Program-made: the position numbers and the translations under genes | In this document: positions 317-64,000 of the stretch, piece by piece | How the letters are laid out: every line of letters starts with the position of its first letter | How positions within the stretch are numbered: the stretch's first letter is position 1 | The notes under the pieces: model-generated | The model's database searches: none | What the model was told of the DNA's origin: nothing | What the model saw: only the letters and a program-made list of their open reading frames with translations | NCBI GenBank assembly: GCA_023053545.1 | Contig: JAKZAN010000220.1 | Span: 1-64,000, forward strand | Direction: 5' to 3' | DNA from: Lepidurus packardi | Taxonomy: Eukaryota; Arthropoda; Branchiopoda; Notostraca; Triopsidae | Length of the DNA stretch: 64,000 bases

Positions 317-3300
317 ATGACAATACCGTTCAATCGCGTCACTTCCGACCCTTACCATATGCAGGATCAAATCTCCTCCAATCAAAGTCTTAGCACCCTA
401 CTAAAAACATAGGCAACTTGAGGTTCTAATTTCTTTGTTTCTTAAGTCTTTATTATAGAGATTTAGAGTATAAAGGTTAGATAGACTGGCGTTGCTTAGA
501 CATTCAAGCTGCACTGCAGGGGATTTGTTCGTATATGTTGTGTTGATTTATATGGTTCGGAGAAAGATCTCGCATATGACTGTGATGACGACTACATCGA
601 AGAAGATGGAGGACTGCCAAATAAAATTGGCAATTTTCCAATTTATTTGTTAGAGTAAAAAGAGCTGTATGTGAGAGCAAACTATCAGACTATCTTAACA
701 GAATGCGAATAGAATACCCGATAGAGTTTATAGCAGAGGCAGATTTATCTAGCCAGGGGCTTCGATAATAGAGTAAGTTCTGTAATAGGGGTCCGATGCC
801 AGAACAACTCTTCAGTGCAGCCGTTAGAACCGTAGGTCGAGCCGGACTACTCTTTCAAGCACGGGGACCTAGACAAGGTGTTGGCCGAGTTGGAGGACCC
901 CTAAAATAAGTATGAATAACCTTTGATGGGCGGTACCAAAAACGGAAACATCCGAATTTTCACGAACGGGTCTAACAAACATTTTGCCTTACTATTAAAA
1001 ATAAAATCGTCATTATTGATAATATCGTTCAGGCTTCACAGTCCCACCGCACATGGCACGCCGCACACCACACACTCACCAAGATATCCCCAAGACATTC
1101 CTCCAAACAGTACCCTACCAGCTCACTTCCCCTCCCTTCCTCCCCTTCCTTTATACCTTTCACCCCTTTTCATTACTTCATCTCTCTGTCTAGGAATCTA
1201 TCCCACTTTCTCTCCCTACCAGCCAAATCAAAGCAGACAAATCCCTGGAACGCAAGAGCAAAGAAGCTTCAAAGGACTTTCTCTTCCAACACAGCTACTT
1301 GAGTGCTTCGCTACCTCACAACTATAACACCCCCTTTGTCCAGTCCTTAAAGGAGTCCGCTAAAGTAGAGATCTTCTAGAGTAAAAATGCGAGCAACAGT
1401 GCGCTTCACCTTCAACACACCGTTTTAATCAACAGTGACGCTATCAAGTATGGGGTGTCAGTGCGTTCTGGTTAATAGCACTGCAATAGCATGGAACATA
1501 GTTTGTCGGTAAAGGGATATCAGCCCTCCCAGCAGTCTCAGTACAATAAAAAGGACAGCAGCAGCATTTAGAGCAACTCTCAGCAGGTATTTCAAGCTTC
1601 TCGGGTGCTATCCAACCAGACGAGCTCTTGTAAAAGTCCAAGTGCATCTGCGACTCACACATTGCACCAACTACAACAGGGAGAAAAACCAGTAGATTTT
1701 AAAGAAGAAGTGAGCAACCCGTTCATTAGGATAACTACCAACCATGCCGATCAGCTTCCGACAAATAATTAAAATGTGCAAACCCTCTTGCGGTCCTACT
1801 AAAGGCGAATATAATAGCTGGAGAACAAACTGGAGACGCACGACCTTGATCGGAAGGCCAATGTAATCTTCAGTAGGTTCGTGGCAGAACTCAGTGCCCA
1901 GTTAAAGATAGCCGAGAGTAGTCCTGATCTAGAACTCATTGAGCTCAAGGAAAAGATCTACTGCATAGTAAGGGAAAACAAACACCTAAGAGGAGAATTA
2001 GAGAAAGCCAACGCAGGCATCCTTCAAATTAGTGATGAGCTCAATAAAGCTCGAAACCTCAATATCCAGATCGTGCTTGAAAGAAACCAGTTTTAGATAG
2101 ATAGCACAAGTGTCAGAAAGGAACTGGAACAGCTACAAAAAAATATGGGCTCCCATCCGAGAGAAAACATCAGGTAGATAGATTCCGAAGTCATGAGGCT
2201 CCAGGTCCACGCGCCTATCATCAAGAAGAGTTCGTCTGACTGGGATGCCAGGGATCATGCTATAGGAAGCCCCCCAGCCCAAGAAAATAATGATGTGAAG
2301 AGTGCAGGAGTCGTATATCGCTCGACGATAATGGGAGCTTCCAATCCAACCAGCAGATAGCAAAGGTTCCTTTATCGGTCTAGCGAGCTAGAGCAGTACA
2401 GAGATACTAACTAACTACCTCTGGAGACTGCACAAAACTGGAACCCCCATGCGCATGAGGTCAAATCAATAAGAGAAAACCACCAGGAAGAAGTCCATCA
2501 GTTACGAGAGAGAGAACGGACACTAATTATGGAAGTGTAACAGCTGAAGTCAATGAATGATGAATTGGTGATGAGTGTGAAGCAGCAACAAGATGTGAGT
2601 GTTAGCAACAGACTTTGTGGAAATAATGAACGTGCGCACAACCTTATGCAGGTGAAACAGGCTGAGGACTGCGATTCATGGACTCAAGGTAAGAGGGTGT
2701 CTGAGTTGAGGAAGGACTTGGAAGCCCTAAAAGTGGAGTGCGAGAACCTGAGAGACAATGAGAAAGTTCTTCTGGAAACAATAGGTGAGCTCGAAACGAA
2801 CCTCGAACAATATCGAAAGAACTAGAAATAGCTTACACTAAGAATTAGTTCCCGCGAAGAAGAAACTAACTAACTCTATCAGAAGAATGACTAATTAAAG
2901 AAAGAAGAGGAAGCCATGATCCAGAAGATAACTGAACTGGAGGCAGAAATGGAACGAGTGAACCTCCAACTCAATCACGAAAGGAGCAACCACTCCAACC
3001 AAGTCGAAGAAACCCGAAGGAAGATCCATCATCTAGAACAAAATCTGTCCTTGAAAGAGTCTCTGATCAGGCAGGCCAAAGAAGAAACCATGTTCTAGAA
3101 CACTGCCTTTCAACAACAAATGTAGGCTCTACAGAAACAACTTGGATAAACTCAAGCAAATGCCAGTAAGAAGATAAGCAGTGTTGAGACTACATACTCG
3201 AGTCGCCAAATCGAGGATGAGCAGAACATTAGACGGTTGGAAAGTGAACTAGCCATCAACAAGGAGACAATACAACTTCTCCAGAATTAAAAAGACTACC

Positions 3301-9753: not shown

Positions 9754-11946
9754 TCATAAGGTGCGTTTTCTCTTTTTGACTGCGGCCAGAGCAGCTGTAT
9801 TATAGGTTTGGTACGAGCAGTAGCCTTCCAAATTCATCTACGTTAAGGAAAAAAGGAGTTTGTGAAGTTCAGTTAAGAAGGTAAATTGATGAAAAGCCAG
9901 ATGATGGAGCAAGCATAACGTGAATAAATCAAATAAGGAAATGTATAAAAATCTTACGGGTTGCTCCTAATCAGCAGGAATGTTGAGCTATGGAAATTGT
10001 ATCGGCAGCCCGAAGTACGTCGCACAGTATTGCACAGTCGGCAGTAGATCGAATAGCAGGAACCCAAAAGTCAGTTCCACAAAATGCTTGAACAAATCGT
10101 TAAAGAGGTTCTCCTAGTCCATCATGTACAGCGAAGAGTGTGGGAATTCTGAAACTATCTATTTTGTGGTAAAGGCCTCGAATTCCTTTCCCAGCACTAG
10201 ATACAGGAAAGAGCACACCAACACCTTGGGCTTGTATTGGAACGACTGGATATCCATGATGCAGCAATCGATGTACTGAGTCATCTGGCTGAAATTTGTG
10301 AGCGAATACTCATCCTTCTTGAATCTTGGGATATTGACGCGTCCTTTTACGAGGGGGTGGTTGCGAGCGTACTCGTCCTGCTCGAGGAATGCGTCCCACT
10401 GCAGCATGAACCGGTTGGCCCACATGTATGTCGTGGGAGGGTTGAGCTCCCATTTCAATACTTTGCAGATCCGAGTTTACATCTCCAGAATCTGGTTAGC
10501 AGTATACTTGTCGCTTGTCGAGGTTGCAAACCGCTGAACAGACAGAGGTATGGGCTCTTCGATTTTGGAAGCAACATACATAGCTGCGGCGCCAACTAAT
10601 TGCAGGTCATTCTTGGGCACGTGGTTAATTTTGTTGAAGTAGATATCTGAGATGGCTACAGCCAGATGGAAGGTGTCTCTTTTAAGACGATACTCGGAGT
10701 TGACGTGCATCATCCAGTCGACCAGGATAGCACGCATATGCCATGCGAAGTTTTTCTGACGCTTTTAGATGTAATAAGGGTCGGGGGCATACTGCGCCTC
10801 GACCATGCTGAGGAACTGAATAGACTCATTGGTGAATAAAAGGTTGACTTCTTGTTGTTCTTTTTAGAAATTCATGAGTTCCATTTCGATCTCAGAGGGG
10901 TCTTTTGCTTTATTATTGATTCTATTGAGGTGTGCCCTCAGGTTGATGGGGTTGCTAGTATTGTTTTTGGCCTCCACGTTGTTGCTAAGTGTCACTGTGT
11001 TTCTCGCGGACTTGACGCGTTGGATCTACAGTACCTCATCGCACTCGAATTCTTCGACCGCAGTAAGCATGTGTGTGCTGGGCAGAATAGTCTGCTTGGC
11101 ATGGTTCTTGAATTTGGTTTGTTGGGAGGAGCCTCGACTATTGGAGCTGGCAGTGGTGATCAACTTGTTCTTGTCGGTCGTCGGCTTCTTCTTTGTATTG
11201 TCGTCATTATTCTGTCTATCAGTCTCCTGGGTCTTGAGCTGTTCATGCAAACTTCCTGGAGTGGTGGATTTCTTGGTCTGGAGCATGTTGGAAGGGAGCC
11301 CATTCATACCGGTAGAGAGACCCGACATATTGGTAATGTTAACGTTGATGGAAATGCCTGTAGAGCTGGTGTTTGGCTCGCCACGACATACTAAGTCGTC
11401 CAGAGCACTCGGCCTCTTGTTGTGCAGAGAACGTGGAATATTGGTATTAGTGTCCTTCTGGGGAGGGGCGTTGTTAAGGATAATATTATTGCCGTTGTTA
11501 TTATTGTTATTGTTGCTATTCGAACTGGCATTTTTAGCGAGATTTTTGAAGTTCATCCCCAGGTGGGACGAAGGGTGCTGCACCATCCCCGCCCCAACCA
11601 GATTGTTAGCAGTGTTGGGCTTGCAGAGGGCCGGGTTGTTGTAGCGGTTATTGGCTGACGTGCACGACGAGTCTTCATGGTGGTAGGTGTGGAAGGTAGC
11701 AGTATTTGTCTCGAAGTTGCGAAGATGGTACTGATTAGAAGGTGCATGGAGGTTACGGCTGTTCTCCTTCTCTTTAGAGAGGGCAGTGGTCAGCAAAGTG
11801 GAAGGGGGATTGTTTTGTGAAATGACAGACTGTTGGGAAGATGGTTTTTTAGTAAGGACGTTGGGATCAGGTTTGCTGAGGGAGGTAACGGAGGGGACAT
11901 TCTTGATGTGGTGTCTCTTGCGTGATGCTTCTTCGTGGGCATTCAT
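9754..11946 (-). CDS. cyclin, A/B/E-like, with long N-terminal extension
   Basis: 690 residues, start ATG at 11946, one 120-bp intron (9838-9957) near the 3' end, TGA at 9754-9756. Residues 1 to about 300 are Asn/Ser/Thr-rich and disordered. The cyclin box starts with MRAILVDWMMHVNSEYRLKR, with the conserved Arg and Asp-Trp used to bind a CDK; LEMETRICKVLKWELNPPT opens the second fold. The glutamate after LEM is encoded by TAA (10477-10479), where A/B cyclins have a conserved Glu. About 45 residues before the box, RAHLNRINN fits the RxxLxxxxN destruction-box pattern recognised by APC/C. Cyclins activate CDKs at set cell-cycle stages; the class (A, B or E) is unclear. Confidence 0.9.
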
Positions 11947-12448
11947 GACTTGAAGAGTTGAGGGGGTGGTAGAAAGGCGGGCGGGCGAATGTAGGGGAGG
12001 AGGGTGAGTTTGAAGATGGAGGTGCAGAGGAATAAAAGAGTGAAAGGTAGTTGGTAATTGTAGTTTATAGTAAAATCGATTAAGAGTGTAATTGAAGATT
12101 TAAATAATTTGTTAGTTTGTAATTTCGTGATGTCGTTTGAGGTGGGCCAAGGGAGGGTTATTTAAGCGGTATACGGATAACCGAATACCTACGCAGCCAG
12201 ATTATCGCTCATTTAGCACTGGACATACGCTCTGGCTAGCCACCCCACATCACATTCAACACCTCACCCACCCCCTATTTCTATAATGCATCCCCAGCAT
12301 CTAGATCCAATTGCAAATCTAAACTCAATACGCACATCCCAACCAGTTTTCCAATTAGAATAAAACCAATTTTCCAATATTCCTCTTTTATTATTCTTCT
12401 AACACTCTACATCATCCTTCATTACTGCATACCAGCCCCCCTTCCTCC
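11947..12448. promoter_or_regulatory. divergent intergenic region
   Basis: 502-bp spacer between the divergent cyclin gene and the next coiled-coil gene. It must hold both promoters. I see AT-rich runs but no element I can name with confidence, no tRNA and no credible ORF. Confidence 0.4.
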
Positions 12449-17569: not shown

Positions 17570-19870
17570 TCACCTTCTCTTTTGCTTGAATTGCTTCTTG
17601 TTCTCTTTGAACTTCTTTTGTTTGTTCTTATTCTATTGGTAGGCACTTGGCTTGCTTGATTTCTTCCCCTTTTTCTGAATCGGTTTCGTCTTCTTTGCTT
17701 TCTTGCCGCCCTTCTTGCCATAACTCGGCCCCTCCTCTCCTATCTTGTCGAACACGTCTTCGAAGTCTCTCTCTTCCGACTCTGGCTCATCTTCCATTTC
17801 GTCATCCAGGTCATCTTCATCTTCCTACTCCTCTTATTCCTCCATCATCTCTGAACCTTCTAATTCCTCCTAGTCATAATCCTCGCCATCTAGATCTTCA
17901 TCTCTGCCCTCGCCGGCCTAGGCTTCAAGTTCTGGGTCGATTTCGGGGCTCTGGTCCATTTCATTGAACACATCTGCATCATCTGATACGATCTCGCCGT
18001 CATCGTCGCTGATATCGGGTAGCCCTTCATCAGAATATTCCTCTTCTTCTTCATCCAAGTCTCTCTGCTGGAGTCGATCCATCTATCGCTCTATCACTTC
18101 GTCTGCATACTCCTCGATATCCTTTTTAGTTTTCTTCTTGTTCTGATTCAACTCATTTTTTTTCTTCAGATAATTGCCCAAGAATTGCTCGTGTTCTGGC
18201 AGATGGTTGATTGGTTTGGACAGCATACTCTCATACTTTGAGGGTCTGATGTTCGCGAGCACCCTTCTATTCTTGATCTTCCAGGCTTCAGACTTCTTTT
18301 CAGGCTTGAGAGCCATTTTCTCCAAGAAAGTAGTCAGACTGAACTCTAACAGAGGATTAGCGCCCTGGTAATTAAGGTTGCCCTCTTTATCAGTCATGAG
18401 AATAGAAGAGAATTTCCTGACAGTGGGATGGTAATGGTCGAGTAGGGCATTCATTTCCCAGAGGCAGCTAATTTATGCGTGAGCATGGGTGGGTTACCGT
18501 TTGAACATATCATATTTCTCTTCACTTTGTTTTCCTGTGCTGTCGTCATCCACAATGCGGCTGGCACGACGCTGCAGCATCGGTAAAATGTAGGCATGAG
18601 TCTTCGAGACGTTAGATATAAACAGGAGCACGGTGATAATGAATGGAGGAGTGGATGTAAAGCAGAGTTGAAGTAGCCTTTTAACGAAGGCCTGTACTCG
18701 TGAAGGGAGAGGGTCTTGTTTACAGGAAATCAAGAGCAGATCCACAAAAAGTTCCAAGAGACTGGACTCCGGGAGAGTGGGATCTGACAAGAAGTCATAG
18801 AGGCAACGGTAGTATCGTTCGGGAAGTTCCTTGGTGAGGTGTTGATGGCTCTGGAACAGGAATAGAAGGAGCTGGATTTTTATCTTGGTGTTTTCGGTGG
18901 TGTGCACGATGCGGTACAAATCATCAGTTTTCTAGTTAAAAGCTGCGTGGAACTGCTCAGCATCGCCCTTGACTAGTGGGAAAAGTTTATTGATTCCTTT
19001 GATGGTATTCAGGAAAAGTTTGGAGTTGAGATCGTCTTAGTTTTCAGTGACCTTTTCCCCTAGTACCAGTCGCTTGAAGAGTTTAAAGTAGAGCTGCATA
19101 AGGGCAGCGAGCTGCTTCTAGTGCACAAGCTTCAGGTTGAGGTTGCTCAGGAAGTTCAGGCAGTAGAACTGGGCATGGTTGGAAATATTCTTACGGAATA
19201 TGAATTCGTCACATTCGCTCAGGAGAGGGCCCAGCATGAGATAGTCTCCCGCCACCTGCTCCCGAAGAGTCTTGGTCAGGAAATTCACAAGCTGCAGATC
19301 TCCATCGCCAAACTTGTTAATTAGCAGAGAAAGAATAGTGGTGCGCATCTCCTAAAACTTAGCCAGTTGCGCCAGCATGCAAACAGCCTACTTTTTCAGG
19401 AAGTAGAGGTTGTCCTTCAGCAACTGTTCCAACACTCGTAGCAACTCTCCATACATGAACTTGATCTTGTGCTACATGTAGAAGCCACTGAGCTCATCTC
19501 CAGATACTTAGCCCTTCCTCTTCTTGTCCTTTTTAATATCATCCAGGGACTGGCTAAAGGAATTAAACCTGTCCTTGCCAGGCAGGATGGATTCTGCTAA
19601 GATGTCGGTGAGCTCTCGACAAGCTGCGACGGCCTACTTTTTGTTTGGGGCTTTGCAGAGGGTGATGAGTCCTTGGAGAGGTTTGACGGAAAGGGTCGGA
19701 TGTTCGAGTATCATCTTGTTCATGGCAGAAAGCTTGTCCTTGAGCGTACCTTTCTCGGCCATATAGAGTGTGAGGGTTTCGCGTTTGACTTGTTTGTCTT
19801 GTGTTTGGTAGAGGGTGTCTGCATGATTGAAGAGAGCAGTGACTCCTTCAGAGAGTTGATGTTTGACCAT
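17570..19870 (-). CDS. NOC1: CEBPZ/Noc1 (Mak21) ribosome-biogenesis factor
   Basis: About 756 residues from ATG 19870, intron 18468-18497 (30 bp), TGA 17570-17572. The CBF/Mak21 domain is clear: LYRIVHTTENTKIKIQLLLF, ERYYRCLYDFL, VQAFVKRLLQLC and, after the intron, CLWEMNALLDHYHPTV, all aligned with human CEBPZ. The segment FYM-TAG-HKIKFMYGELLRVLEQLL aligns with the family's 'yFEhqLK' block, placing Glu at the TAG (19472-19474). The C-terminus is an acidic stretch followed by a Lys-rich nuclear/nucleolar tail. The family acts with Noc2 in 60S pre-ribosome assembly. An in-frame upstream ATG at 20095 would add 75 residues that look less conserved. Confidence 0.92.
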
Positions 19871-26100: not shown

Positions 26101-26215
26101 AAGGAGGAGGCCGACATCCAAACAACGCAGGCCTCAAAAAAATATTTGAATCTTCAAATATCACACCATAAGACTCCTAATATTTATTATACACGAAGCC
26201 ACGAACATTAACAAT

Positions 26216-29200
26216 ATGATCAAGAAACTCACCAATACAGCTCCCCACTAGTCCCACTCCTTCACCCTGCCCCAGTATGCCCCCCTGCCCCAGACGCCCT
26301 AGTCCACACCCTCCAATGTCGTCCACTGCTACTTCTCCGAAATCTACGACCTCGCTCAGAATATGGATCACTCCGAACTCTCTAAAGACAAACCTCTCAC
26401 CAAACCCATCCAACTCCTCCGCCAGCAAAAAACCAATTGCTACGTTCAGCCCCTTTAACAAGGTCTTCTGGTCATAAGCAAGGGAGGGAGCAACTTTCAT
26501 ATCCCACTTGAGCACAAAGTAGAGAAGATTTTTGCGCTCAGTGAAGGTCTCCTCATCCAGTTCATCGTGAAGCAAGACCCCAAGTTCTCTGAAATATTGC
26601 AGTATCAGCGCACCAAGCAGTTCCAAAGTCAAGCCAATCTCGAATAACAACAACGCTTCTCGTATGTCACTCTTAATAAGCACCCTCTTAATCCAATTAA
26701 GGTCCTGGGCGTTCTGCGCAAAGAAGACATCGTACCTTGGATCAACTCTCACTAGAAAATAGTGTATGTGAGCAGCACTCTCCCTCTGGCCATCTCATAC
26801 AATCCACTCCTGCAGCGCAATGCCTTCCATATTCTGAAGACTAACATCTAGGAGGCGGAACGTGAATCCTAACGCATAAATTTCCACAACAACTTCTATA
26901 CCATAAAGGATCTGTGCGACAACACAGCAGTAGGATACAGTTTTCCTCCTAACCTTTCTCTTGAAATCGTAGCAGACATGTTCTTTGAAGAGAATACCCG
27001 AGAGGAGTGTCTTTGTGAAGCTATCCTTTCCAGAGGAAACGGCCCAGCGCACTTCCTTCTCCACGCACTCCTTGAAGACCCAACTTCACAAAGCTCAAAG
27101 TCTTTAACAATTTATGACATCAGGTTGTTAGACAACTGTAGAGTAGAGGTTGTACACCGTAGCCCCGAAGTAGTCGGAATCTTCCGTACCGCTGTGTTCG
27201 AGCCCGAAGTAAAGATCCCCAAGGTGCAGCATCTGTGGAATCCTCGCCAACAACAAGATATCCAAATGAATATTCTACTCTAGGCTATCAAGAAGCTTCC
27301 TGAAGCAGTATTGATCGTGGAGCAGACCAACTACTTTTTAAGTTATAATGGTAAGCTAGTCTACACGGCACCTATCCCTTCGCAACCCTATACTATTGTA
27401 TCTGCGAGTCTATTCGATTAGACCACCCTGCATTTGAAAAGTAGTTCGTCGCAGCCCAACTCCAAGGTCATCGAGCTTATGATCCCAAAACGCATCAACG
27501 ACCCCTTGGTTTGCGCCATTTTAAAGCTCCTATACGAAGTTGTGGATGCTGCCATGTCTACAAAGTTCCTTGCCGACTATCTTTCTGAAAGAAACCAGCT
27601 TGGATCCACCTTTAGTGAGTATGAAATTCTTGAAAAGTATCTGTTGAAAGTGTATGAGGCACCATCAAATATCAATAACCATGCGCAGGGCGTAGGACTT
27701 GCTTCCCCAGATTTGTCTGTCAAGAGTCGGCTGAGGAGAATGCTTCATCTGCTCTACCAGGAATCGCTACTCAACAGATTCTGCCCCTATTCCTCACAGC
27801 TTGTCCAGCTCCTTTATAATATTTCTGTGGCTGACTGCAATTTGGCCAATGCCAATCTATATTGTGATTATTATCTCCGGCGAGGAGCCAAACCATCTAG
27901 TAAGAGGGCGGGACCTCAGTTGCCAGCTTCTCAACTGGCCGAAATAGAACTGCCAGACTTAACAGACTTTGTGTGTCTGATGCTGGCTTCTCATAAAAAG
28001 TAGCTAGAGCTGGGGATAGCAGATCAAAAGAACAAGTTCCCCATAGTATTCAAACGCACTAAATTTGTACTGCGTCTGTTTGAGTTGCTGATAGACGGAG
28101 AGACAGGCGGGAGAAGTTATTACCCAGACAAATTCATAAATAAAATCGCAAAACAAGACCTTCCAGCTAAAGACATGCTTTCGGAAATGTTCCCTCTTCT
28201 GCATCAGAAGGTCTTCTACATGAAGTACTACCGCAGAAAAATGGATGGCTTTTAAAGACTCGAAAGGACCAGAGAAATGCCACAGATTACGGATCGACAG
28301 CAAAAGGTCTTCCTCTACCTCATCCAAAAAGGAGTCACTTTGGACAAGTTAAGAACCTATCCCTATAGTGTGTCTACTCCAATCTATGAAACCCTTAGAG
28401 CCATGCGCAGACAGCTGCCCAGCCAACTGTACGAAGTTATCCCTAGACTTGGGTTCAGCCTTATCAACAGGGAAGATCTCTACAAGAACATTAAACTCTA
28501 CAAACGAAACTCAGTGCGTGCTCCCTATCATCTTCAGAATACTTCTCTGAGCTCGACAATTCAAACTCTTATCCATTCTTCAACGAGCGAGGAGTACTAC
28601 CTGACTTCCAACACTTTCGAGATGAACCGCCTCAACAACGATGCTGTGTTTTCTGAAGTTACTAAGCTCCTTGCATCCAATAATTAGATGAAAATCAAAC
28701 CACGATAGATTGTAGAAATTCCTGAAGACAAATGGGAGGCCGATAGTCAACTCATTATCTCTCGATTCGCCAACTATCGTTTGGCAGTCCTACCAGGTCA
28801 AGGTGCATTTACCCTTGGCACATCGCAGACTTACATTACCGAAGTCATCAAAATTAACAAAATTAATGTTAGCGCGCTAATGCCTAACGATACCAAAATC
28901 GTCTTAGACCTGAAGGATGATAAGGAGACCATGGTATTCTGGCCTGAATTCCATAATGGAGTTGCAGCCGGCCTGAGACTCTCTCGACACATCATTCCTC
29001 TGAGCCAAGATCATCTCAAGACTTGGATCTTCTACCAGAAACCAGAAACTCCCAAGAGAGATCATTCGGGTTTTCTTTTGGCTTTGGGTTTATTAGGCTA
29101 TCTTCAATGCTTCTCTCCGACTGATATATACCAATATCTTAAGCCTAATAATGAATTCACAAGCGCAGCGATCCTTCTGGGAGTTTCGGCTTCAAATATT

Positions 29201-39691: not shown

Positions 39692-40759
39692 TCACCTAGC
39701 AAGAAGTGAGTTAAGTTTTGTGTCGTAGTACTTGCTTATCTTGATTGTTTTGCCCTGCAGACCTTGGAAGTAAGGGTCCTCTAGCAGCTGTTTCGTCGAT
39801 GGACGCTCCCGAGGATCCAACCTCAGACACCACTACATTATACGGGCTGTCTCCGGAGTAACCCCCAGGACCTTATCGAAGGCTTTCCTAGGGGCAGGCT
39901 GGAACTAGATAACCTTAGGCATCTTATTCCAGCCTTTCCAGGTTTCATCGCTTGGAGTTCCCACCAAGTAGAATATGCGCTGCAAAATCACGATGTCATT
40001 CTGTTCGAGCCCAGGAAAGATGTCATCGCGAGTGAACAGGAAACCCAGGATACATCCCAAAGACCAGATATCACACTTCTAGGTGTAGAGGCGAGTCTGA
40101 AAGAAGATCTCAGGCGCACGGTATTCGGCAGTGCAGACAGTCCTGGTGAACTGGCGGTCTGGTGTTCCGAACTCGCGTACGAAACCAAAATCTGCTATTT
40201 TGGCGATGCCAGCTTTTGAGACGAAGATGTTCATAGGCTTTAGATCGCGATGGAACAGGTTCTTTTCCTCATGCAAGTAGTGAAGACCCTGGAGAATGTG
40301 GTACGCGATTATTTTAAGGGTCGTCTCGTCCTTAATATCGTTCTTGATGATCACTTCGTGCAGATCGAGCATGAACTCCAGCACCAGGTACAGTTGATAG
40401 CGGTGCTCTTTCTTCTTGGAGAATACTTCTTCTGCTTTGATGATATTGGGATGGTTTAGCATGGGCAAGAGTTTGATTTCGCGCAGGGTAGGGTGATCGC
40501 AGCCGTAGTCTTTATCTCTGTCCAGCTGCGTGAACTTTTTGATGGCGACGTATTGGCCTTTTCCAGGGTTGCTAGCAGGGCTATTATACGGTTTGCTTCT
40601 AAACTTGTTCAGGACGAAATTGTTGGGTTTTTCGCGGACGCGTTCGCACAAAAACACAGTCCCAAAGGAGCCCTAGCCGAGGGAACAGATGCGGCTATAC
40701 GTATCATTGAGCAGTTCGCGCTCCATGGGATAGTCTTGAGTCTCTCGGAGCTCTATCAT
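39692..40759 (-). CDS. CMGC-type protein kinase
   Basis: 355 residues, single exon, ATG 40759 to TGA 39692-39694; essentially only a kinase domain. Visible motifs: glycine loop LGEGSFGTVFL, where the Glu is a TAG codon (40673-40675); YVAIKKF with the ATP-binding Lys; HRDLKPMN catalytic loop; ADFGFVREF; TRTVCTAEYRAPEI activation segment; and YTEKCDIWSLGCI. All catalytic residues are present, so it should be active. A 30-residue insertion lies between the glycine loop and the VAIK strand. The PEI-segment and C-lobe layout fit the CMGC group (CDK/MAK/CDKL-like); a closer assignment is not possible here. Confidence 0.9.
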
Positions 40760-40955: not shown

Positions 40956-42843
40956 ATGAATCAAAATTTCAACTTCCCCCAGCCTGCCTCCGACCTCGCC
41001 AATCTCCTCCAGTCCGATAAGCTACTCGTCAAAATGCCTCTCTTCCCTGTTCTCCGCCACGAAATCCGTCATAACTTGAAATATCTCCACGACCACCAAC
41101 TCCTACAATCATCCAAATGGCTTGGCGAACTCCTTCTTGGAATCACTCCCGAATAAGACCTGGACGGTTCTTTCCTTCTCAAGTCCTTCATAAGCAACAA
41201 TACAGACCCTAGCTACCGATTCTCGGCCACCGTCAGCTCAACCACCGAAGAGCTAGACGATGTGCTCGGATTGGCCCGCACACTCTTCGAACTCCGCTAA
41301 TATAAGAAATGCGCGCACCTGCTGAAGCCTATCCTAACTCGCTACCCTGGCCAACAGAGTGTCATTTTCTTCCATTACTATAGTTTATGGATGGCAGGCC
41401 AGATCCGCAAGGAAGAAGAAGTCTATGAAAACGGTACTATCATATGTTATCCTCACATTCGAAACGCATAGAGGGAACAAACAGACAGCCCACCAACCCT
41501 GAACTGCAACTCCTCGAACGATAGTTCCGGCAACTGCACCGCGATCGCAAGCTCAAGGATATTAACCTCTTCCTTTACGGCCTGATCCTGAAGGAGCAGG
41601 AGCGCCTGGAGGAGGCTAAAGACATCTTCATCGATGTGCTGAATAGCTTCCCGTGTTTCTGGTCGTGCTGGCTGGAGCTGTGCAGGCTTGTTCAGAACGA
41701 TGACATCGTAACACCTGATACTCATCCAAATTACTAATCTAATTTAATAGAGAACGGTGCTTTCGCGATTGCAAGACCACTGGATGAAGAACTTCTACTT
41801 CAGTTCCTACTGTCTGGAAAAGTATAAGAACAATATTTCTACCGAGATCAACTATGGGTTGTTCTGCTACTTCAAAAACTCCACCTTCATCATGAACCAG
41901 ATCGCTCACTCATTCTACAACAGCCAAGACTTCGATGTCAGTCTCGAGTGGTTCGAACGACTTGTAGAGGTCGACCCCTACCGCTACGAGAACATGGACA
42001 CATACTCTAATATTCTCTACATCAAGGAGAATCAGGGAGAACTCGCAAACCTTGCTCTACGCTGCTTCTACAACAACAAATATACTCCTGAGACTTGTTG
42101 TGTCGTCGGAAACTACTACTCCCTTATGGGCGAGCATCTAAAGGCCATCATCTACTTCCGCAAAGCCCTAAAACTCGACAGAACGTGTCTTGCGGCATGG
42201 ACTCTCATGGGTCACGAGTATCTAGAACTCAAGAATATATCGGGTGCCATAGAGGCCTACCGTAGCGCTGTGGAAATTGATCCCAAAGATTTCAGAGCCT
42301 GGTATGGTCTTGGTCAGACGTACGAGCTTCAGAATATGAACCACTACGCTCTGTACTATTTTACTCGTGCCGTGATGTCCCGACCCAAAGACTCTCGCAT
42401 GTGGAATGCCATGGCGAGTTGCTATGACAAGATGAACACTGGCAAGAACGAGTCTTCCAAGTGTTACGAGCGTGCAGAAAACTGCAAGGATAGAGAAGGT
42501 ATAGCGATCCACCAGCTAGCTAAGCTATATAACCTGATGGGGCCAGAGTTCGAGTCAAAGGCGGTAGAAACCTTCGAGCAGAATCTGAAGCGCAAAGACT
42601 AAGAAGGAGTGACGGATAAGGAATTGGGCGAGTGTTTGCTGTACTTGAGCAGGTACTACAAGAAGCATAATAACCTCGAAAAGGCCATCCAGTACGCCCG
42701 TCGACTGTACGATTTCCAGGGCCCCGAAAAGTAAGTATTAGTATTTAAAGAATGCCAACCGACGTAGGGACGAAGCGAACCTGTTGCTGCAAGAGCTGAA
42801 CATCCTATCGAACCAGGGCACCGGCACCATGCATTACATTTGA
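40956..42843 (+). CDS. CDC23: anaphase-promoting complex subunit 8 (CDC23)
   Basis: 589 residues, close to human CDC23 (597). ATG 40956, introns 41434-41471 (38 bp), 41708-41750 (43 bp) and 42731-42767 (37 bp), TGA 42841-42843. Matches to the human protein run through the TPR array: LQDHWMKNFYF, DPYRYENMDTYSNILYIKEN, CCVVGNYYSLMGEHLKAIIY, AWTLMGHEYLELKNISGAIE, DFRAWYGLGQTYELQNMNHY. The last exon gives ANLLLQELNILSNQGTG, like the human NQG-containing tail. APC8 is a TPR subunit of the APC/C arc lamp, contacting APC1 and the co-activator. Exon joins are supported by restored homology. Confidence 0.96.
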
Positions 42844-50704: not shown

Positions 50705-51067
50705 AGGTACGTGGTTTATTGAAGTGGAGTGTTATATTTTAGCTGTGAGCTCTATATAGAAGTCAGGTAAATAGAGTAGATATACGGATAAGGTGGTATT
50801 GGATACCAGGAAAGATAGAGCAAGGATGAAGGAAGGTAGGGGCGGCGCGGAAGAGTTTTTTTGTGAGGTTTAGTATTGATAGGGCGAGAAACTTTACTAG
50901 GCAGACGAGAGGAGGGTGAGAGGCTAGGTTTTGTTCTAGCTTTCTGAAAGTTGCCCATGCCCTGTTCTATCAATCAATTCCCGACTTGCTTTTACTTTAG
51001 TTTGAAATTTCTGCAATTGAAACTAATAATTGCTCAAAATATATACATCCACCTTTCCACACTCAAA
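50705..51067. promoter_or_regulatory. divergent intergenic region before IFT139
   Basis: 363 bp between divergently transcribed genes. A TATA-like ATATATAC lies about 30 bp before the IFT139 ATG (near 51038). Nothing else stands out. Confidence 0.4.
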
Positions 51068-54000
51068 ATGTCCAAAACTAAACTCATGGAACTCGAGATC
51101 GCAGAAGCCACCATCTTCTTCCTCCTCAGGCAGAAGTTCTGGCAGTCCCTCGAAGACTACTCCCGCGAAGCCTTCAAGAAAACCAATGACCCTTTCTTCG
51201 TCTTCTGGAAGGCCTTCGCCTGTTTCAAATTGGGAGACCCCAATAACTCCATCAACGAGCTAGCCACTATCCAGCAGAAAAAATAGATCTCATATGCTGC
51301 CTATGTCGCCCTCATCTACTATCATAACCAAGCAAGGAACATCGACAAGGTACACCCCTCTTTTCGATCGTGAACCCACCTCTATTGATATGTTTAAAAT
51401 ATTCTTCAGGAATAACTTGAGCTCCTCAAAAGCAAGGAAAGATAGGAACGGAGAAATGGAGCCGATAAGGCTTTTATCCAGGCTGCGTACTTCTATATGA
51501 ATGTGGGCGAGTACCGCAGAGCAGCAGACCTCCTGGCCGAAAAGAATTCTAAAAACATGGGGTTCCGTATCGCTAAGTGCTGGCTCGACTTCACGAACCC
51601 TGAAAATAACAAGCCAGAAGCCCTCGAAGAAGAAGTCGAAAAACTATACATGTAGAAGGATCGCGTGGTTCCAAAGATCGAGATCTTCGTCTTGAGAGCA
51701 CAACTATGTAGCGCTCTAAAAAAATTCGATGAAGCTTTGAAATCCGTGAATGAAGGTTCTGTGTTTTACCCAGATTACCTGCCACTACTGAATGAGAAAT
51801 GCACTTGCCACATGGCCCTGACCCAGTGGGAACAATTCTTTGAAGTTGCCAGAGAAATTATAGAAAAGGACCCCACCAATATCCTTGCATGCAAATGCAT
51901 CGCCTTCAATGAACTAGCTCGCGAAGGCAACATCGATGGGGCTTTTATGAAGCTTAAAGAGTTGGAGAACATCATTGAGAGGAAAGAAGCCAAGAATACC
52001 AACTTACTGTACGAAATCGCCCACCTTTTCTCGAGAATCTCGGGGCGGAACCTTAAAATCGTCAACCTTCTTCAGAGATTCATCGGAAAGTGCAGAAAGC
52101 TGGACCCTCTCAACGCAGATTACGCCGTCTAAATGGCCAACCAGTACCTTATGATCGGAGACTTAGAAAAAGCCTATCAAACATTTTAGGAAGCCTCGAC
52201 CCTTGATCCTTCTAAAATCGAGGCTATTTCAGGAATGATCGAATGTAAAATTAACCAAGGTGAGATGGACGATGCCGAAAAACAGATAGAATTCGTGAAC
52301 TAGCTACAGGCCAGTATCGGCCAAAACAGCACCATTGCCTTCCTCGAGGCTCTGCTGTCTATCCGAAAGCCCAACTCTGGTTCTCATGATGACTTCATGC
52401 ACTCCATGTCATTCGTTGATAATGCCCTCAAAACTCAGATCAACTACAGCAAAACCTTAACATCAGGCTTCAGTTTCTATTCTAAACTCAATCCAAACTT
52501 CCTCTATAGTCTAGCAGAGCTCTACCTCCATCATATATCTATGAAATAAATGATGAGAGGTACTTAGAGCAATAGCCAAGGTTCCCCTGTCGGCAAAGGC
52601 TTGAAGTTGTTGGAGAGTCTGCTTAAGCATATTCCTGGGTTCCTCCCAGCCTATCTTCTCATGGCCAAGGGTAAACTTGCTGCTGGAAATGAAGTGGATG
52701 CTAGTTCTTGCATTGAAAGGGTTCTTCAGTTTGACCCGAAGAACGAATAGGGTTACATCTTGGAAGCGATGATCAAATCGAAGAAAAAGGATTTTGAGGG
52801 AGCTATGTCGAGTCTGCAAGAAGCTATATCGCATAACTTTAAAATTAGGGAAAATCCTCTCTTCATGCTGATCAAAGGTGAGATCGAGTATGAAATCAAA
52901 GACTTTGTCACTGCAGAGATGACGATGGAGCAGACTGCCAACCTGCAGAGTATAAAAGACAAAGAGGTGCCTGCTGAGATTAAAAGATATAAGGTTCTAA
53001 GCTTCAGCGACAAAGACCGCTGTTCAATCTACTTGCTGTTGGCCAAGTGTTATGCAAAAAACAAAAAGACCAAAGAATCCAAATCAATCATGACCCAGGC
53101 GATCGGAGAATTTGTAGGCACTTCAGAGGAAGTAAATGTCTTGTTGACGAATGCAATGATTTCGTTGGAGACAGGCGATATCAAAAAAGCTATCAGCATC
53201 CTTAAGGCAGTCAAAAGTGACTCTGCCTATTTTGTTGAGAGTAGGAAAATGCTGGCTGACATCCACCTCAACTCCCTCAAAAGTCGAAAGAACTACGCCA
53301 GGTGTTACTATGAGATCATCGAGACTGATCCCTCCTTCGAAAACTATAAACTATACGGTGATGCTCTGATCAAAATCAATGAGCCTGAGGATGCAGCAGT
53401 CGCCTATGCGAAGGGCTATGAGCTTAATCGTGAAAATGAAGGTATAATCAGGGATCTGGGCAGAGCTTACTCTATGTCACACGACTACGAAACAGCTATC
53501 AAATTCTATGAAAGTAATCTGCAGAATATCAAGAGAGTAGATCTGGCCTTAGACCTTGCTAAGCTTTACATCCAGCTGAAAAGATACGAAAAGGCAGAGG
53601 TCCTCCTGAACATAGATCAGTTCAATGAGCAGGACGACACAACAATGGAGAAAATAAAACAGAACGTGGAAGGCTTCTATACTCTCTACAAACTCTACCT
53701 CAAAAAACAAGGAGTGTTGGATTATACCCCCAACTAAAACGCCAAGAAGGCTATCAAGAAATGTATGAGTGAGCAGCAAAAAGTCCTTGCGAAGGCGAAG
53801 GAGTAAGGTGGAAATGTTCTTGAGGAAAAGAAACATTTGTCTAACCTCCTATATGACTTTGCCAGCTACCTCAATAACTATGAGAAGAGGAACATCGAAA
53901 ACACAATCCATGCTCTTGTGGAGTGTCTGAGACTTTATTCCGAGCACGAGAAAGCCTTAGAATTGTTATGCACAGAGTATCTCAAGCAAAATGAAAAGGA

Positions 54001-55242
54001 AAAGTGTCAGCATCATTGTGAGCTTTTACTGAAGGTGAACCCTAAGAACGACCAAGCTAGTTTTATTCTGGCTGAGATCATGCTCAAAAACAACCAGTAT
54101 GAAAAGGCAATAGAACAGTTCAAGAAGATCCTGACTGAAAAGCCTGGGAACTATCCTGTGCTAGCCAAATTGATCGACTTTTTCAGGAGAAACAACGAGC
54201 TTGAAAAAGCCAAGACGTATCTCGATGCAGCCCAGAGCAAAGCTAGCAACACTAACGATGCTGGCCTGTGTTTCTGCAGAGGGCTTTACAACAAATATGT
54301 ACGCAACCCCAGGGAAGCTCTCAGCGAGTTCAACAAAGGTAAGAAACTCATCTCAGCATAATGACCTAAACTTAATACTTTACAGCCAAGAAATCAATTC
54401 GTTATGCTGAGGATTCTCTGTACCACATGATCGACATCTACTTAAACCCCGACCAAGACATGTACTACTCCTGCATCGAGGAGAAGACCAGGATGGTGGA
54501 TCCTGAGAACATCAGGGTGTGCGAGAACCTGCTGCGGGAAATGCAGACACGAGCGTCTAGCCACCGGTTTACAGTGATGGAAGCATACGTGACGATCATG
54601 AGCAACAAACCATACAACAACGAAGATGTGACCAAAAAGTTGGTGGAACTGCTGAAAACCGTAAACAATTGTCATTAAATAAAAATATGGGAGGAGTTTC
54701 GTACATATCTTGGTAGAGGAGTGACTTCGCACCTGCAATGTTCGGAATAGCGATTTTGAAGTTCCTCGCTAAGAAGGAGACTGAGGCCAAGAATTTCCTG
54801 AAACTCCTTGCCAAAAAACCCTACGACAGCGAATGCGGAGAGGAGCTGTAGAAAGCCTGGCTGCTCCACGCTGAGTCCTTCATTAAGGTACTGCACCTCC
54901 AATAACCACCATACGACTCAGATCCAAAAATATGATAATGCTGAAGAGACTCTTCGGATGACTCTTAAAGAAAACAAGTCATGCGGCAAAGCTGAGTAAT
55001 TCATGGGGCTGATCAAGGAAAAAGAACAGGCCTACGTGGATGCAGCCAACCACTATGACAACGCATATAATCTGACGTTGAGGAAGTCTGTATCTATCGG
55101 TTATCGGCTGGCTTTCAACTACCTGAAAGCGAAACGCTACATAGAGTGCATCGAGATCTGCAGAAACATCTTGGAACAGTACCCGAACTACCCGAACTTG
55201 GAAAAATAGGTACTGGAGAAAGCCATTCTTGCCTTGAAATGA
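51068..55242 (+). CDS. IFT139: intraflagellar transport protein IFT139 (TTC21B)
   Basis: 1,325 residues, against about 1,316 in human TTC21B. ATG 51068; introns 51350-51409 (60 bp), 54339-54385 (47), 54661-54716 (56), 54888-54921 (34); TGA 55240-55242. It is TPR throughout. Strong matches include AEKQIEFVNELQASIGQNST, YSKLNPNFLYSLAELYL, EPEDAAVAYAKGYELNREN, SLYHMIDIYLNPDQDMYY, ECGEELEKAWLLHAESFIK and EFMGLIKEKEQAYVDAANHY. Conserved Glu positions are TAG or TAA at 52301, 54849 and 54997. IFT139 is a peripheral IFT-A subunit in retrograde ciliary transport. Splicing at each intron restores homology. Confidence 0.97.
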
Positions 55243-56951: not shown

Positions 56952-57123
56952 ATGCCTTCGGATTGTTGCCATGATTAATTTGCATGAGATGATGAGTTTA
57001 ATATCTATATCGCCAGTACCTAGCAAAACAACAGAAATCCACATACTTTCAAACAGCCAATCTCACCCACACTCACATGCTGCATCCAGCAATCAGTAGA
57101 ATACTCATTCAATTCAGATTCTT

Positions 57124-57714: not shown

Positions 57715-57736
57715 TGTGGTCTTTAGGCGAATAAGA

Positions 57737-59246: not shown

Positions 59247-59463
59247 CTGAGGTATTTAGATGAACTTAAAAATATCTCTGGCTATGGGGAGAATGATTCT
59301 TCGTTTTCCAGATGTTTAGGTCTTAATGTTGATGGCAAGAGTGGCATAGTATTAGGAGTGGTTGAATCGGGGGAAGTAGATCTACTGGATGAGGAACTGT
59401 GCGGGAGGCAAGTTGGGGATGTGGATTTGGGTTGGTCTGGCGATTAGCCGTTATTCTAAAGCA

Positions 59464-62400
59464 TCAAGTTTGGGAGAAGAGAACATCGATGTTTAATGAG
59501 CAATTTGAATTACGTGACTAAAGGCTTACCTTCAGCTACTTGAAGGCAGTATTTGATAGATTCATGAACTTAATGTTCACGCGCACAAGCTTACCCTTCT
59601 CATAATTGTCCACAACTGTATACCGAGTGCACACGCTCAAGTAGTCGCTGTGGTAGATGTGTTTGTTCTCACCTATCTTCTGCTAAAATAACTTTACATA
59701 ACCACTACTCCTCCCGTACTCTTCACTTAGGTAAAACAGTCGGTAGCAGCTGTAGCGGTTCAATCCCACGTTCCCAGGCGTCTAACTCTCCGATTTCAAC
59801 TAAACTTTAGCCGGAGAAAAGGGGCACTCCTTGGAAAGCTCATTCTGTAATTTCTAATTAAAAGTAAGAGGAGATAGGTACTCTTTCGCTCTGAGTTGCC
59901 TTTTCACCTCGAGCTTATCCTGAATCAAAGAGGATAGTTTTTACAGCCTGCTCAGAAGGCTGACAAGAAAATCAGAGTTCTCTTCTTAATTGGGGATCGA
60001 AACTTAGCTTGAAGAGGTGTGGAGTAGTTTCTAGGTATTGGAAAAGTAGTTAGACACTTTCGACTTGAGTTCGTAGAATTTCAAAAATATCTAATCGTCT
60101 TGCTGTTTAACTTACTTAAGAGACTAGACGACCCGATCTAGTGTGAGAGGCAGGCTAGATGATATCTCAATAAATTTATTCTCAAGCTAAGATAATCTTG
60201 AAGCAGGTTGAGCTTATTTATGATGGGCAGGAGGGATTTGAATTTAGTATTTGACAGGAGGAACAGTGTGAGTCTCAAGGTTATATCGATCTGTCTGGTA
60301 TTGTTATGAGATGCTATCTGAAATAGCATTAAAAAGATTGTTCATCAACTATCGTTGTTGATTAGAAGCTGAAGATCCAGAAGCGAAAAGAGAGCTAGGC
60401 AAAACAGCAGAGCCGAATCCAGAACCAGAAAGTTGCTTGAGAAAAGACGAATGCTACAATACAGGTGGGAGAAAAGATTGCGAAATATTTGAAGATTAGA
60501 TCTCACCAAAGTCATCGAATGCTGGGGATAGAGGAGGAATGAGAACAGGATCAAGAGAACGAATAGGAAAAGGCTAGGAGGAAATAATATTGACGGAACT
60601 CTCCACTCCTTTGCTCTTGTTGCTGCTCACAGATCCAAAGTCTGACAAGTTGTGCTCTTCGTTCTTAACTGACTTGACTGACTTTTCCTTCATTTGGAAA
60701 CCACTGAATCCAAGGTCCTGTTGTTGAGACTGTCCTGGTCTGCCCATGTTCACGGAAGGCTCAAGACTGGACTTCATGTTGTCGCCAAAGTCTGAGAAGT
60801 TCAGCGACTCTTTTGGCTTGCCCATGTTCACGGAACTCTCCACTCCTTTGCTCTTGTTGCTGCTCACAGATCCAAAGTCTGACAAGTTGTGCTCTTCGTT
60901 CTTAACTGACTTGACTGACTTTTCCTTCATTTGGAAACCACTGAATCCAAGGTCCTGTTGTTGAGACTGTCCTGGTCTGCCCATGTTCACGGAAGGCTCA
61001 AGACTGGACTTCATGTTGTCGCCAAAGTCTGAGAAGTTCAGCGACTCTTTTGGCTTGCCCATGTTCACGGAACTCTCCACTCCTTTGCTCTTGTTGCTGC
61101 TCACAGATCCAAAGTCTGACAAGTTGTGCTCTTCGTTCTTAACTGACTTGACTGACTTTTCCTTCATTTGGAAACCACTGAATCCAAGGTCCTGTTGTTG
61201 AGACTGTCCTGGTCTGCCCATGTTCACGGAAGGCTCAAGACTGGACTTCATGTTGTCGCCAAAGTCTGAGAAGTTCAGCGACTCTTTTGGCTTGCCCATG
61301 TTCACGGAAGGCTCAAGACTGGACTTCATGTTGTCGCCAAAGTCTGAGAAGTTCAGCGACTCTTTTGGCTTGCCCATGTTCACGGAACTCTCCACTCCTT
61401 TGCTCTTGTTGCTGCTCACAGATCCAAAGTCTGACAAGTTGTGCTCTTCGTTCTTAACTGACTTGACTGACTTTTCCTTCATTTGGAAACCACTGAATCC
61501 AAGGTCCTGTTGTTGAGACTGTCCTGGTCTGCCCATGTTCACGGAAGGCTCAAGACTGGACTTCATGTTGTCGCCAAAGTCTGAGAAGTTCAGCGACTCT
61601 TTTGGCTTGCCCATGTTCACGGAACTCTCCACTCCTTTGCTCTTGTTGCTGCTCACAGATCCAAAGTCTGACAAGTTGTGCTCTTCGTTCTTAACTGACT
61701 TGACTGACTTTTCCTTCATTTGGAAACCACTGAATCCAAGGTCCTGTTGTTGAGACTGTCCTGGTCTGCCCATGTTCACGGAAGGCTCAAGACTGGACTT
61801 CATGTTGTCGCCAAAGTCTGAGAAGTTCAGCGACTCTTTTGGCTTGCCCATGTTCACGGAACTCTCCACTCCTTTGCTCTTGTTGCTGCTCACAGATCCA
61901 AAGTCTGACAAGTTGTGCTCTTCGTTCTTAACTGACTTGACTGACTTTTCCTTCATTTGGAAACCACTGAATCCAAGGTCCTGTTGTTGAGACTGTCCTG
62001 GTCTGCCCATGTTCACGGAAGGCTCAAGACTGGACTTCATGTTGTCGCCAAAGTCTGAGAAGTTCAGCGACTCTTTTGGCTTGCCCATGTTCACGGAAGG
62101 CTCAAGACTGGACTTCATGTTGTCGCCAAAGTCTGAGAAGTTCAGCGACTCTTTTGGCTTGCCCATGTTCACGGAAGGCTCAAGACTGGACTTCATGTTG
62201 TCGCCAAAGTCTGAGAAGTTCAGCGACTCTTTTGGCTTGCCCATGTTCACGGAACTCTCCACTCCTTTGCTCTTGTTGCTGCTCACAGATCCAAAGTCTG
62301 ACAAGTTGTGCTCTTCGTTCTTAACTGACTTGACTGACTTTTCCTTCATTTGGAAACCACTGAATCCAAGGTCCTGTTGTTGAGACTGTCCTGGTCTGCC

Positions 62401-64000
62401 CATGTTCACGGAAGGCTCAAGACTGGACTTCATGTTGTCGCCAAAGTCTGAGAAGTTCAGCGACTCTTTTGGCTTGCCCATGTTCACGGAACTCTCCACT
62501 CCTTTGCTCTTGTTGCTGCTCACAGATCCAAAGTCTGACAAGTTGTGCTCTTCGTTCTTAACTGACTTGACTGACTTTTCCTTCATTTGGAAACCACTGA
62601 ATCCAAGGTCCTGTTGTTGAGACTGTCCTGGTCTGCCCATGTTCACGGAAGGCTCAAGACTGGACTTCATGTTGTCGCCAAAGTCTGAGAAGTTCAGCGA
62701 CTCTTTTGGCTTGCCCATGTTCACGGAACTCTCCACTCCTTTGCTCTTGTTGCTGCTCACAGATCCAAAGTCTGACAAGTTGTGCTCTTCGTTCTTAACT
62801 GACTTGACTGACTTTTCCTTCATTTGGAAACCACTGAATCCAAGGTCCTGTTGTTGAGACTGTCCTGGTCTGCCCATGTTCACGGAAGGCTCAAGACTGG
62901 ACTTCATGTTGTCGCCAAAGTCTGAGAAGTTCAGCGACTCTTTTGGCTTGCCCATGTTCACGGAACTCTCCACTCCTTTGCTCTTGTTGCTGCTCACAGA
63001 TCCAAAGTCTGACAAGTTGTGCTCTTCGTTCTTAACTGACTTGACTGACTTTTCCTTCATTTGGAAACCACTGAATCCAAGGTCCTGTTGTTGAGACTGT
63101 CCTGGTCTGCCCATGTTCACGGAAGGCTCAAGACTGGACTTCATGTTGTCGCCAAAGTCTGAGAAGTTCAGCGACTCTTTTGGCTTGCCCATGTTCACGG
63201 AAGGCTCAAGACTGGACTTCATGTTGTCGCCAAAGTCTGAGAAGTTCAGCGACTCTTTTGGCTTGCCCATGTTCACGGAAGGCTCAAGACTGGACTTCAT
63301 GTTGTCGCCAAAGTCTGAGAAGTTCAGCGACTCTTTTGGCTTGCCCATGTTCACGGAAGGCTCAAGACTGGACTTCATGTTGTCGCCAAAGTCTGAGAAG
63401 TTCAGCGACTCTTTTGGCTTGCCCATGTTCACGGAACTCTCCACTCCTTTGCTCTTGTTGCTGCTCACAGATCCAAAGTCTGACAAGTTGTGCTCTTCGT
63501 TCTTAACTGACTTGACTGACTTTTCCTTCATTTGGAAACCACTGAATCCAAGGTCCTGTTGTTGAGACTGTCCTGGTCTGCCCATGTTCACGGAAGGCTC
63601 AAGACTGGACTTCATGTTGTCGCCAAAGTCTGAGAAGTTCAGCGACTCTTTTGGCTTGCCCATGTTCACGGAAGGCTCAAGACTGGACTTCATGTTGTCG
63701 CCAAAGTCTGAGAAGTTCAGCGACTCTTTTGGCTTGCCCATGTTCACGGAAGGCTCAAGACTGGACTTCATGTTGTCGCCAAAGTCTGAGAAGTTCAGCG
63801 ACTCTTTTGGCTTGCCCATGTTCACGGAACTCTCCACTCCTTTGCTCTTGTTGCTGCTCACAGATCCAAAGTCTGACAAGTTGTGCTCTTCGTTCTTAAC
63901 TGACTTGACTGACTTTTCCTTCATTTGGAAACCACTGAATCCAAGGTCCTGTTGTTGAGACTGTCCTGGTCTGCCCATGTTCACGGAAGGCTCAAGACTG
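59464..64000 (-). CDS. giant FxDFG-repeat protein, continues beyond right edge
   Basis: More than 1,510 residues; the start lies beyond the window. One frame runs without TGA from 64000 to TGA 59464-59466. The upstream part is a tandem array of two modules: B (53 residues, opening NMGRPGQSQQQDLGFSGFQM and containing HNLSDFGSVSSNKSKGVESS) and A (26 residues, NMGKPKESLNFSDFGDNM plus a short tail). After the array comes SPAFDDFGEIE, a Ser-rich linker, a coiled coil (about 60190-59890), and a C-terminal beta-rich region (YRLFYLSEEYGRSSGYVKLF, KLVRVNIKFMNLSNTAFKEL). FxDF/DFG-type short motifs bind appendage (ear) domains of clathrin adaptors in proteins such as synergin and aftiphilin; the Ser/Asp-Phe-Gly repeats suggest a multivalent adaptor-binding scaffold. 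That function is inference; no single family is recognised. Confidence 0.85.
60594..63984 (-). repeat. tandem array of 78-bp and 159-bp coding units
   Basis: Twelve B units (159 bp) and nineteen A units (78 bp), in frame, order from high to low coordinates: B-A3, B-A4, B-A, B-A, B-A, B-A3, B-A, B-A, B-A2, B-A, B-A, B. The sum (12x159 + 19x78 = 3,390 bp) fits the interval. Units look identical at the nucleotide level by eye. A partial A unit touches the window edge, so the array continues. Such identity means recent unequal exchange or conversion, and assembled copy number may be unreliable. Confidence 0.95.

Follow-up and report, generated by a model that had tools for sequence, protein, structure and literature searches.

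Evidence for glutamate at UAA and UAG in a telomere-capped ciliate contig of the Lepidurus packardi assembly

What do TAA and TAG mean in genes that they interrupt again and again without ending them, and to whom do such genes belong? The question is raised by the first 64,000 bases of contig JAKZAN010000220.1, hereafter the window, in an assembly filed under Lepidurus packardi (GCA_023053545.1; 108.6 Mb in 344 contigs, of which this is number 209, bases 1-64000). An initial annotation, made from the bare sequence, had proposed that nearly all genes here stay in frame through TAA and TAG up to a TGA, that both codons stand for glutamate and not for glutamine, and that this code identifies the source lineage. 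Our analysis leaves little doubt that the window is the telomere-capped end of a macronuclear chromosome from a ciliate that reads UAA and UAG as glutamate and uses UGA as its only stop, which is the peritrich code (NCBI table 30).

Open reading frames across TAA and TAG

When TGA was taken as the only stop, we found ten open runs of at least 600 codons in the window (2261, 1733, 1511, 991, 896, 854, 831, 660, 653, and 647 codons), against none in 30 first-order Markov control sequences, where the longest run reached 483. In-frame TAA or TAG occurs in 20 of 23 window segments picked by codon usage, as had been claimed for nearly every gene. Summed over the 23 segments, which were chosen with the codon usage of the kinases and are therefore a non-random sample, 48 TAA and 81 TAG stand beside 368 GAA and 385 GAG (129 of 882 potential glutamate codons). 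The gene families named by the initial annotation (IFT139/TTC21B, APC1, Noc1/Mak21, CDC23, a cyclin, and a protein kinase; Table 1) are backed by Pfam and by solved structures.

Meaning of the two codons in kinase columns

The residue at every TAA and TAG column was tabulated, as the initial annotation had suggested, in protein kinases of the same genome. Contigs C73-C337 gave 127 rows of kinase matches, from which 64 loci were taken: the best 66 minus two with an internal TGA (on C252 and C215). The kinase of the window lies outside this set. Sixty-six kinase domains were aligned and, with two duplicate copies dropped, 64 were scored by comparing the residues of the other kinases at TAA and TAG columns with background, in nats. 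TAA and TAG were scored separately because a code with UAA = lysine and UAG = glutamate has been published for Oligohymenophorea sp. PL0344. At the TAA columns (n = 104), glutamate scored +84.4, glutamine -1.2, and lysine -62.6 nats; at the TAG columns (n = 116), the values were +76.1, +12.2, and -23.1. Glutamate thus leads glutamine by 85.6 nats for TAA and 63.9 for TAG, with 95% intervals (bootstrap by kinase) of 46 to 132 and 31 to 98, both above zero. All 12 control codons in the kinase columns returned their own standard residue.

The same result is seen in columns conserved at 50% or more. Glutamate is the top residue there at 28 of 32 TAA and 16 of 22 TAG codons, with 134 of 163 for GAA, 117 of 133 for GAG, 4 of 26 for CAA, and 13 of 61 for CAG. 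Glutamine is on top at only one of the 32 TAA and one of the 22 TAG codons, compared with 13 of 26 CAA and 29 of 61 CAG, and proline leads at four of the 22 TAG codons. The claim of glutamate and not glutamine therefore holds in these kinases for both codons.

These columns also bear on mixed decoding, in which UAA and UAG would be read mainly as glutamate and partly as glutamine, either as a relic of an ancestral state or through a near-cognate tRNA-Gln. An ancestral glutamine state in Oligohymenophorea is inferred by McGowan et al. (PMC10553269), and a two-component fit gave glutamine a weight of 0.21 (0.09-0.34) at TAA and 0.17 (0.02-0.31) at TAG, against 0.08 (0.03-0.13) at GAA and 0.06 (0.01-0.11) at GAG. 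However, these 95% intervals overlap, and the glutamine excess raised by the fit is unsupported by the direct comparison, in which glutamine has a column frequency of 0.060 at TAA/TAG sites, against 0.058 at GAA/GAG sites (permutation p 0.39), so that no glutamine admixture is needed. Besides, CAA and CAG are one C-to-T transition away from TAA and TAG, which could yield glutamine-like columns anyway. We give mixed decoding little credence.

Solved orthologues and Pfam models

For the genes with solved orthologues, X was placed at each TAA and TAG, the proteins were aligned to the solved chains, and a script took the residue that the best chain has at each site. Forty-five of 75 sites entered the comparison; the 30 dropped were 14 in APC1 outside the aligned range, six in the acidic tail of NOC1, five in the cyclin (four outside, one in a gap), one in the kinase (outside), three in Pelota upstream of the first Met, and one in CDC23. 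The 18 TAA sites face glutamate (8), aspartate (3), isoleucine (3), proline (2), leucine (1), and methionine (1), never glutamine or lysine. The 27 TAG sites face glutamate (8), glutamine (5), aspartate (3), threonine, serine, and proline (2 each), and lysine, valine, glycine, methionine, and asparagine (1 each). Solved orthologues thus agree with glutamate for TAA and more weakly for TAG, and on balance they favor glutamate for both codons.

One of the IFT139 chains, structure 8hmc, is from Tetrahymena (PMC10023715). In seven printed alignment blocks, its residue opposite TAA/TAG is glutamate at five and glutamine at three of ten sites, while in the same blocks, used as a control, GAA/GAG face glutamate at 27 and glutamine at seven of 64 sites and CAA/CAG face glutamine at nine and glutamate at two of 23. 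The other two IFT139 chains are presumably human TTC21B and Chlamydomonas IFT139, and three reassigned codons of the window face glutamate in all three (Table 1).

Two of these three, at 54849 and 54997, are among the seven positions for which the initial annotation had named a conserved residue, all of which do carry TAA or TAG in the context described. Glutamate was also recovered in the solved orthologues at the sites cited for APC1 (29357), Noc1 (19472; codon listed at 19474), and the cyclin (10477; codon listed at 10479). For the IFT139 codon at 52301, the human residue is indeed glutamate, but Tetrahymena has glutamine and Chlamydomonas aspartate. In the glycine loop of the window kinase (40673; 40675), the reassigned codon is present, but it lies outside the printed alignments and does not discriminate; the residue at this position of kinases is variable.

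The TAG codons of IFT139 at 52187, 52301, and 52565 are the ones opposite glutamine in Tetrahymena. This may be due to chance, as GAA and GAG of the same gene also face glutamine. If the Tetrahymena gene also has TAA or TAG at these three places, the codon would have been retained through a change in what it encodes.

Pfam models were scored with different residues at the two codons. Among the five residues tried in kinases, glutamate at TAA was the best in two of them, by 5.2 bits (L095) and 8.2 bits (L086). At TAG, a first model was indecisive for kinase L108 (glutamate 223.5, aspartate 223.4, glutamine 222.5). Summed over the IFT139 of the window, five TTC21 models gave the highest of ten codes to glutamate for both codons (E/E, written as TAA/TAG; 589.0 bits), followed by Q/E (587.6), K/E and E/Q (584.6 each), S/S (584.5), D/D (584.0), and Q/Q (582.9). 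The window alone is modest evidence for glutamate, and the case rests on the kinase set.

With these data the PL0344 code, in which UAA is lysine and UAG glutamate, can also be judged. It has been published in a ciliate of the class Oligohymenophorea (PMC10553269), and its TAG half fits. However, the TAA half is at odds with the kinase columns given above, lysine at TAA lies 5.2 and 9.9 bits under glutamate in two kinases, no best orthologue has lysine opposite TAA (0 of 18), and the G+C content given for PL0344 is 30.6% (PMC10553269), against 42-47% in the window. We regard the chance of this code here as practically negligible.

Points against glutamate and the search for its machinery

A number of observations weigh against glutamate for both codons. 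In columns conserved at 70% or more, glutamate stands at 18 of 18 TAA and eight of nine TAG codons, but such columns are nearly devoid of glutamine, which is scarce even for true CAA (0 of 6) and CAG (at most 1 of 13); therefore, this cut alone does not exclude glutamine. The five glutamines opposite TAG in the solved orthologues, of which the Tetrahymena IFT139 accounts for three, are a further such point. Among single Pfam models, kinase L124 scored lysine (205.2) slightly and glutamine (204.7) above glutamate (204.2) at TAG, and a second kinase model did the same for L108 (glutamine 109.5, lysine 109.4, glutamate 109.2). Only one of the five TTC21 models ranked glutamate for both codons first alone, and reading TAA as glutamine costs 1.4 bits in the sum. 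The evidence for TAG is weaker outside the kinase set, and single sites and single proteins vary. Finally, neither a suppressor tRNA nor a ciliate eRF1 was confirmed in the searches described below.

Some of these points speak for the table 6 code of Tetrahymena and Paramecium, with glutamine at both UAA and UAG, which is described as the commonest ciliate variant (PMC10553269): the glutamines opposite TAG and the preference of some single Pfam models for glutamine at this codon. Against it stand the lead of glutamate in the kinase columns, the near absence of glutamine as their top residue, and the fact that GAA and GAG of IFT139 likewise face glutamine in Tetrahymena. Considering both sides, we find table 6 very improbable for this genome.

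Glutamate at both codons would presumably be achieved as it usually is with reassigned stops. Extra tRNA-Glu genes, arisen by duplication and carrying UUA and CUA anticodons, would supply tRNAs that the ordinary glutamyl-tRNA synthetase charges and that decode UAA and UAG, while eRF1, restricted to UGA, would no longer end translation there. Both parts are inferred. In an incomplete search of the assembly, no suppressor tRNA-Glu (UUA or CUA anticodon) was confirmed, nor did ARAGORN find a suppressor tRNA in the 134 sequences on which it was run. A tRNA-Glu D-arm pattern with the anticodons UUC, CUC, UUA, and CUA gave 41 matches against 26 in the reversed control, six of them on contigs from C73 onward, of which four were inspected (leaving out a UUA-like match on C265 and a UUC-like one on C194). 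One ciliate tRNA-Glu(CUC), L070, was found, and a DNA search of the assembly with it returned only itself. Of the others, the CUA-like match on C161 is no tRNA, nor does ARAGORN recognize the UUA-like matches L071 and L072 as tRNAs.

With patterns that linked the anticodon and the T-loop, matches did not clearly outnumber those in the reversed control (21 versus 33 and 50 versus 46). The first such pattern had given 350 against 80, flooded by a satellite on C4, where positions 405125-462347 are a dense satellite-like repeat with the core TTTAAACCGGTCTAAACCAGTTCAAACC. The UUA-pattern match at C332:14539 is most likely a tRNA-Lys(UUU), with the same start offset as the tRNA-Lys matches of the large contigs. 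Matches with the spacing of L070 (UUA on C73, C79, and C109; CUA on C227) are not clearly above the reversed controls and provide no evidence, and the same applies to two further CUA matches of longer spacing (C97 and C188). For the release factor, a search with the eRF1_1 family gave five matches, only Pelota and no ciliate eRF1, in a contig set that may be incomplete.

Termination at UGA

TGA is the terminator. In IFT139 the TGA coincides with the end of the Tetrahymena chain (residue 1334 of 1334). Under a code with context-dependent stops, UAA and UAG would be sense inside genes yet end some of them; in its favor is a 2020 paper on three peritrichs, which reportedly found less biased stop codon usage. 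Counted from the 3' ends of the 23 segments, TAA and TAG account for 16 of the 67 glutamate-type codons among the final 30 codons, 34 of 175 among the 70 codons before these, and 125 of 757 in the remainder. This count has low power, and each frame was continued up to the following TGA, so that some pass through introns or beyond the gene. In this small sample there is no depletion near the 3' ends and hence no sign of a context-dependent code, and IFT139 has a conserved C terminus that ends at TGA. It is quite unlikely that UAA or UAG also ends genes here.

Source of the contig and composition of the assembly

Aligned to the solved chains, the IFT139 of the window reaches 827 bits for Tetrahymena, 439 for human, and 349 for Chlamydomonas; with a ciliate as its nearest relative, the source is a ciliate. 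The contig begins with a C4A2 repeat, which is a ciliate telomere. From its code, we infer that this ciliate is probably a Vorticella-like peritrich. The G+C content of the window (0.42-0.47) fits, since published peritrichs range from 25 to 46%, with 42.4% in Trichodina acuta and 46.3% in Vorticella sp. (PMC12411067, Table 1). Of the proposal that the code would identify the lineage, the code itself (table 30) is supported, and the peritrich identity, which follows from this code, is probable. There is a slim chance that the ciliate is not a peritrich; it would then represent a second independent origin of glutamate at UAR (UAA and UAG) in ciliates, and the step to glutamate, one base from GAA/GAG and via duplicated tRNA-Glu, would come more easily than one would expect from only one known origin.

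The assembly is a mixture. Among 136 rows of kinase matches, those on C73-C337 carry TAA or TAG inside the domain in 120 of 127 cases and TGA in five of 127, whereas four of nine matches on the multimegabase contigs C1-C6 have no stop and three of the remaining five have TGA too, as introns would give. This difference indicates that the assembly combines the ciliate with another organism. The five eRF1_1 matches include Pelota of the ciliate (L129) and an exon on C5 (L130; C5:8034756) that by eye looks like the Pelota of the second organism and resembles chain 5lzw, which we take to be mammalian Pelota. Because of this resemblance, the second organism is probably an animal, either host or culture partner. 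A nematode, considered on the basis of six large contigs, was dropped: there was no Col_cuticle_N match, although this model gave no match in control genomes either. A search for (TTAGGG)5 had no match. The large contigs are unlikely to be the micronucleus of the ciliate itself, given that a DNA search of low sensitivity returned no second copy of its tRNA-Glu from them and that C1-C6 show the kinase stop pattern just described.

A mixed assembly fits the biology described for peritrichs, as most species in PMC12411067 are epibionts whose host material is often coisolated. The seven peritrich assemblies of that 2025 study are fragmented, with N50 values of 2.3-57 kb (PMC12411067). The long macronuclear contigs of the probable peritrich, which lie here beside the large contigs of another organism, could aid studies of the shift from glutamine to glutamate at the same codons in Oligohymenophorea, and they need the right label. 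Contigs C206, C78, and C76 are exactly 60000, 110000, and 125000 bases long, which suggests cuts at round coordinates during scaffolding.

Other features of the window

The longest open frame (Table 1) adjoins the telomere. It had no Pfam match at E 0.001, and TAA/TAG make up 78 of its 263 glutamate-type codons, a proportion roughly double that of the 23 segments. At the other edge, a large tandem repeat array at 60593-63829 (periods of 237, 78, and 315 bases) encodes, on the minus strand, a repetitive protein (the frame of 1511 codons in Table 1). Within this frame, the 1051 codons of 60772-63924 contain no TAA or TAG, codons that are freely used elsewhere in the genome. Two frames matched LbR_Ice_bind, the Pfam ice-binding beta-roll: 22552-23031 with 57.5 bits and 24042-24809 with 30.4 bits (cutoff, 30).

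Table 1. Coordinates of the features discussed, with in-frame TAA and TAG codons
Feature	Positions	Strand	TAA and TAG	Remarks
Telomere of C4A2 (CCCCAA) type, CCCAAC repeated 36.5 times	1..219			Contig end
TGA-bounded open frame, 2261 codons	1020..7802	+	38 TAA, 40 TAG
Cyclin gene (Cyclin_N), open frame	9757..12249	-	6 TAA, 6 TAG	TAA 10479 opposite Glu of cyclin A2
Noc1/Mak21 (CBF domain)	17579..19870	-	5 TAA, 11 TAG	TAG 19474 opposite Glu of MAK21
APC1 (anaphase-promoting complex subunit 1), open frame	26150..31348	+	11 TAA, 15 TAG	TAG 29357 opposite Glu
Protein kinase (best matches CDK-like)	39710..40735	-	4 TAG
CDC23/APC8, at least 2 pieces	40968..42731	+	3 TAA across both segments
IFT139/TTC21B, several exons	51044..55242	+	5 TAA, 9 TAG in aligned exons	TGA end = Tetrahymena IFT139 end
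IFT139 codon	52130..52132	+	TAA	Glu common to Tetrahymena, human, and Chlamydomonas chains
IFT139 codon	54849..54851	+	TAG	Glu common to Tetrahymena, human, and Chlamydomonas chains
IFT139 codon	54997..54999	+	TAA	Glu common to Tetrahymena, human, and Chlamydomonas chains
Open frame, 1511 codons, open at window edge, mostly tandem repeats	59467..63999	-	8 TAA, 13 TAG

Comparison with known codes

The code itself is already known in peritrichs, in which UAA was reportedly described as glutamate in a 2003 paper, and the ciliate studied here is a well-supported further user. Among ciliates, glutamate at both UAA and UAG is reported from peritrichs (PMC11687900, PMC10553269), and the table 30 code is given for Campanella umbellaria and Carchesium polypinum (PMC4967479, PMC10553269). 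The window agrees with it in UAA and UAG as glutamate and UGA as stop, with no difference in the traits tested. The contigs therefore need table 30, since translation with table 1 or table 6 would give broken proteins or glutamine in place of glutamate. The PL0344 code shares UAG as glutamate and UGA as stop but has lysine at UAA (PMC10553269), where we find glutamate. Glutamate at UAR is also part of the nonstop code of Blastocrithidia (PMC12153298), although this is a trypanosomatid in which UGA is tryptophan, whereas TGA bounds the genes of the window. The Tetrahymena/Paramecium code is alike in having UAA and UAG as sense codons and UGA as stop, but the two codons stand for glutamine there and for glutamate here.

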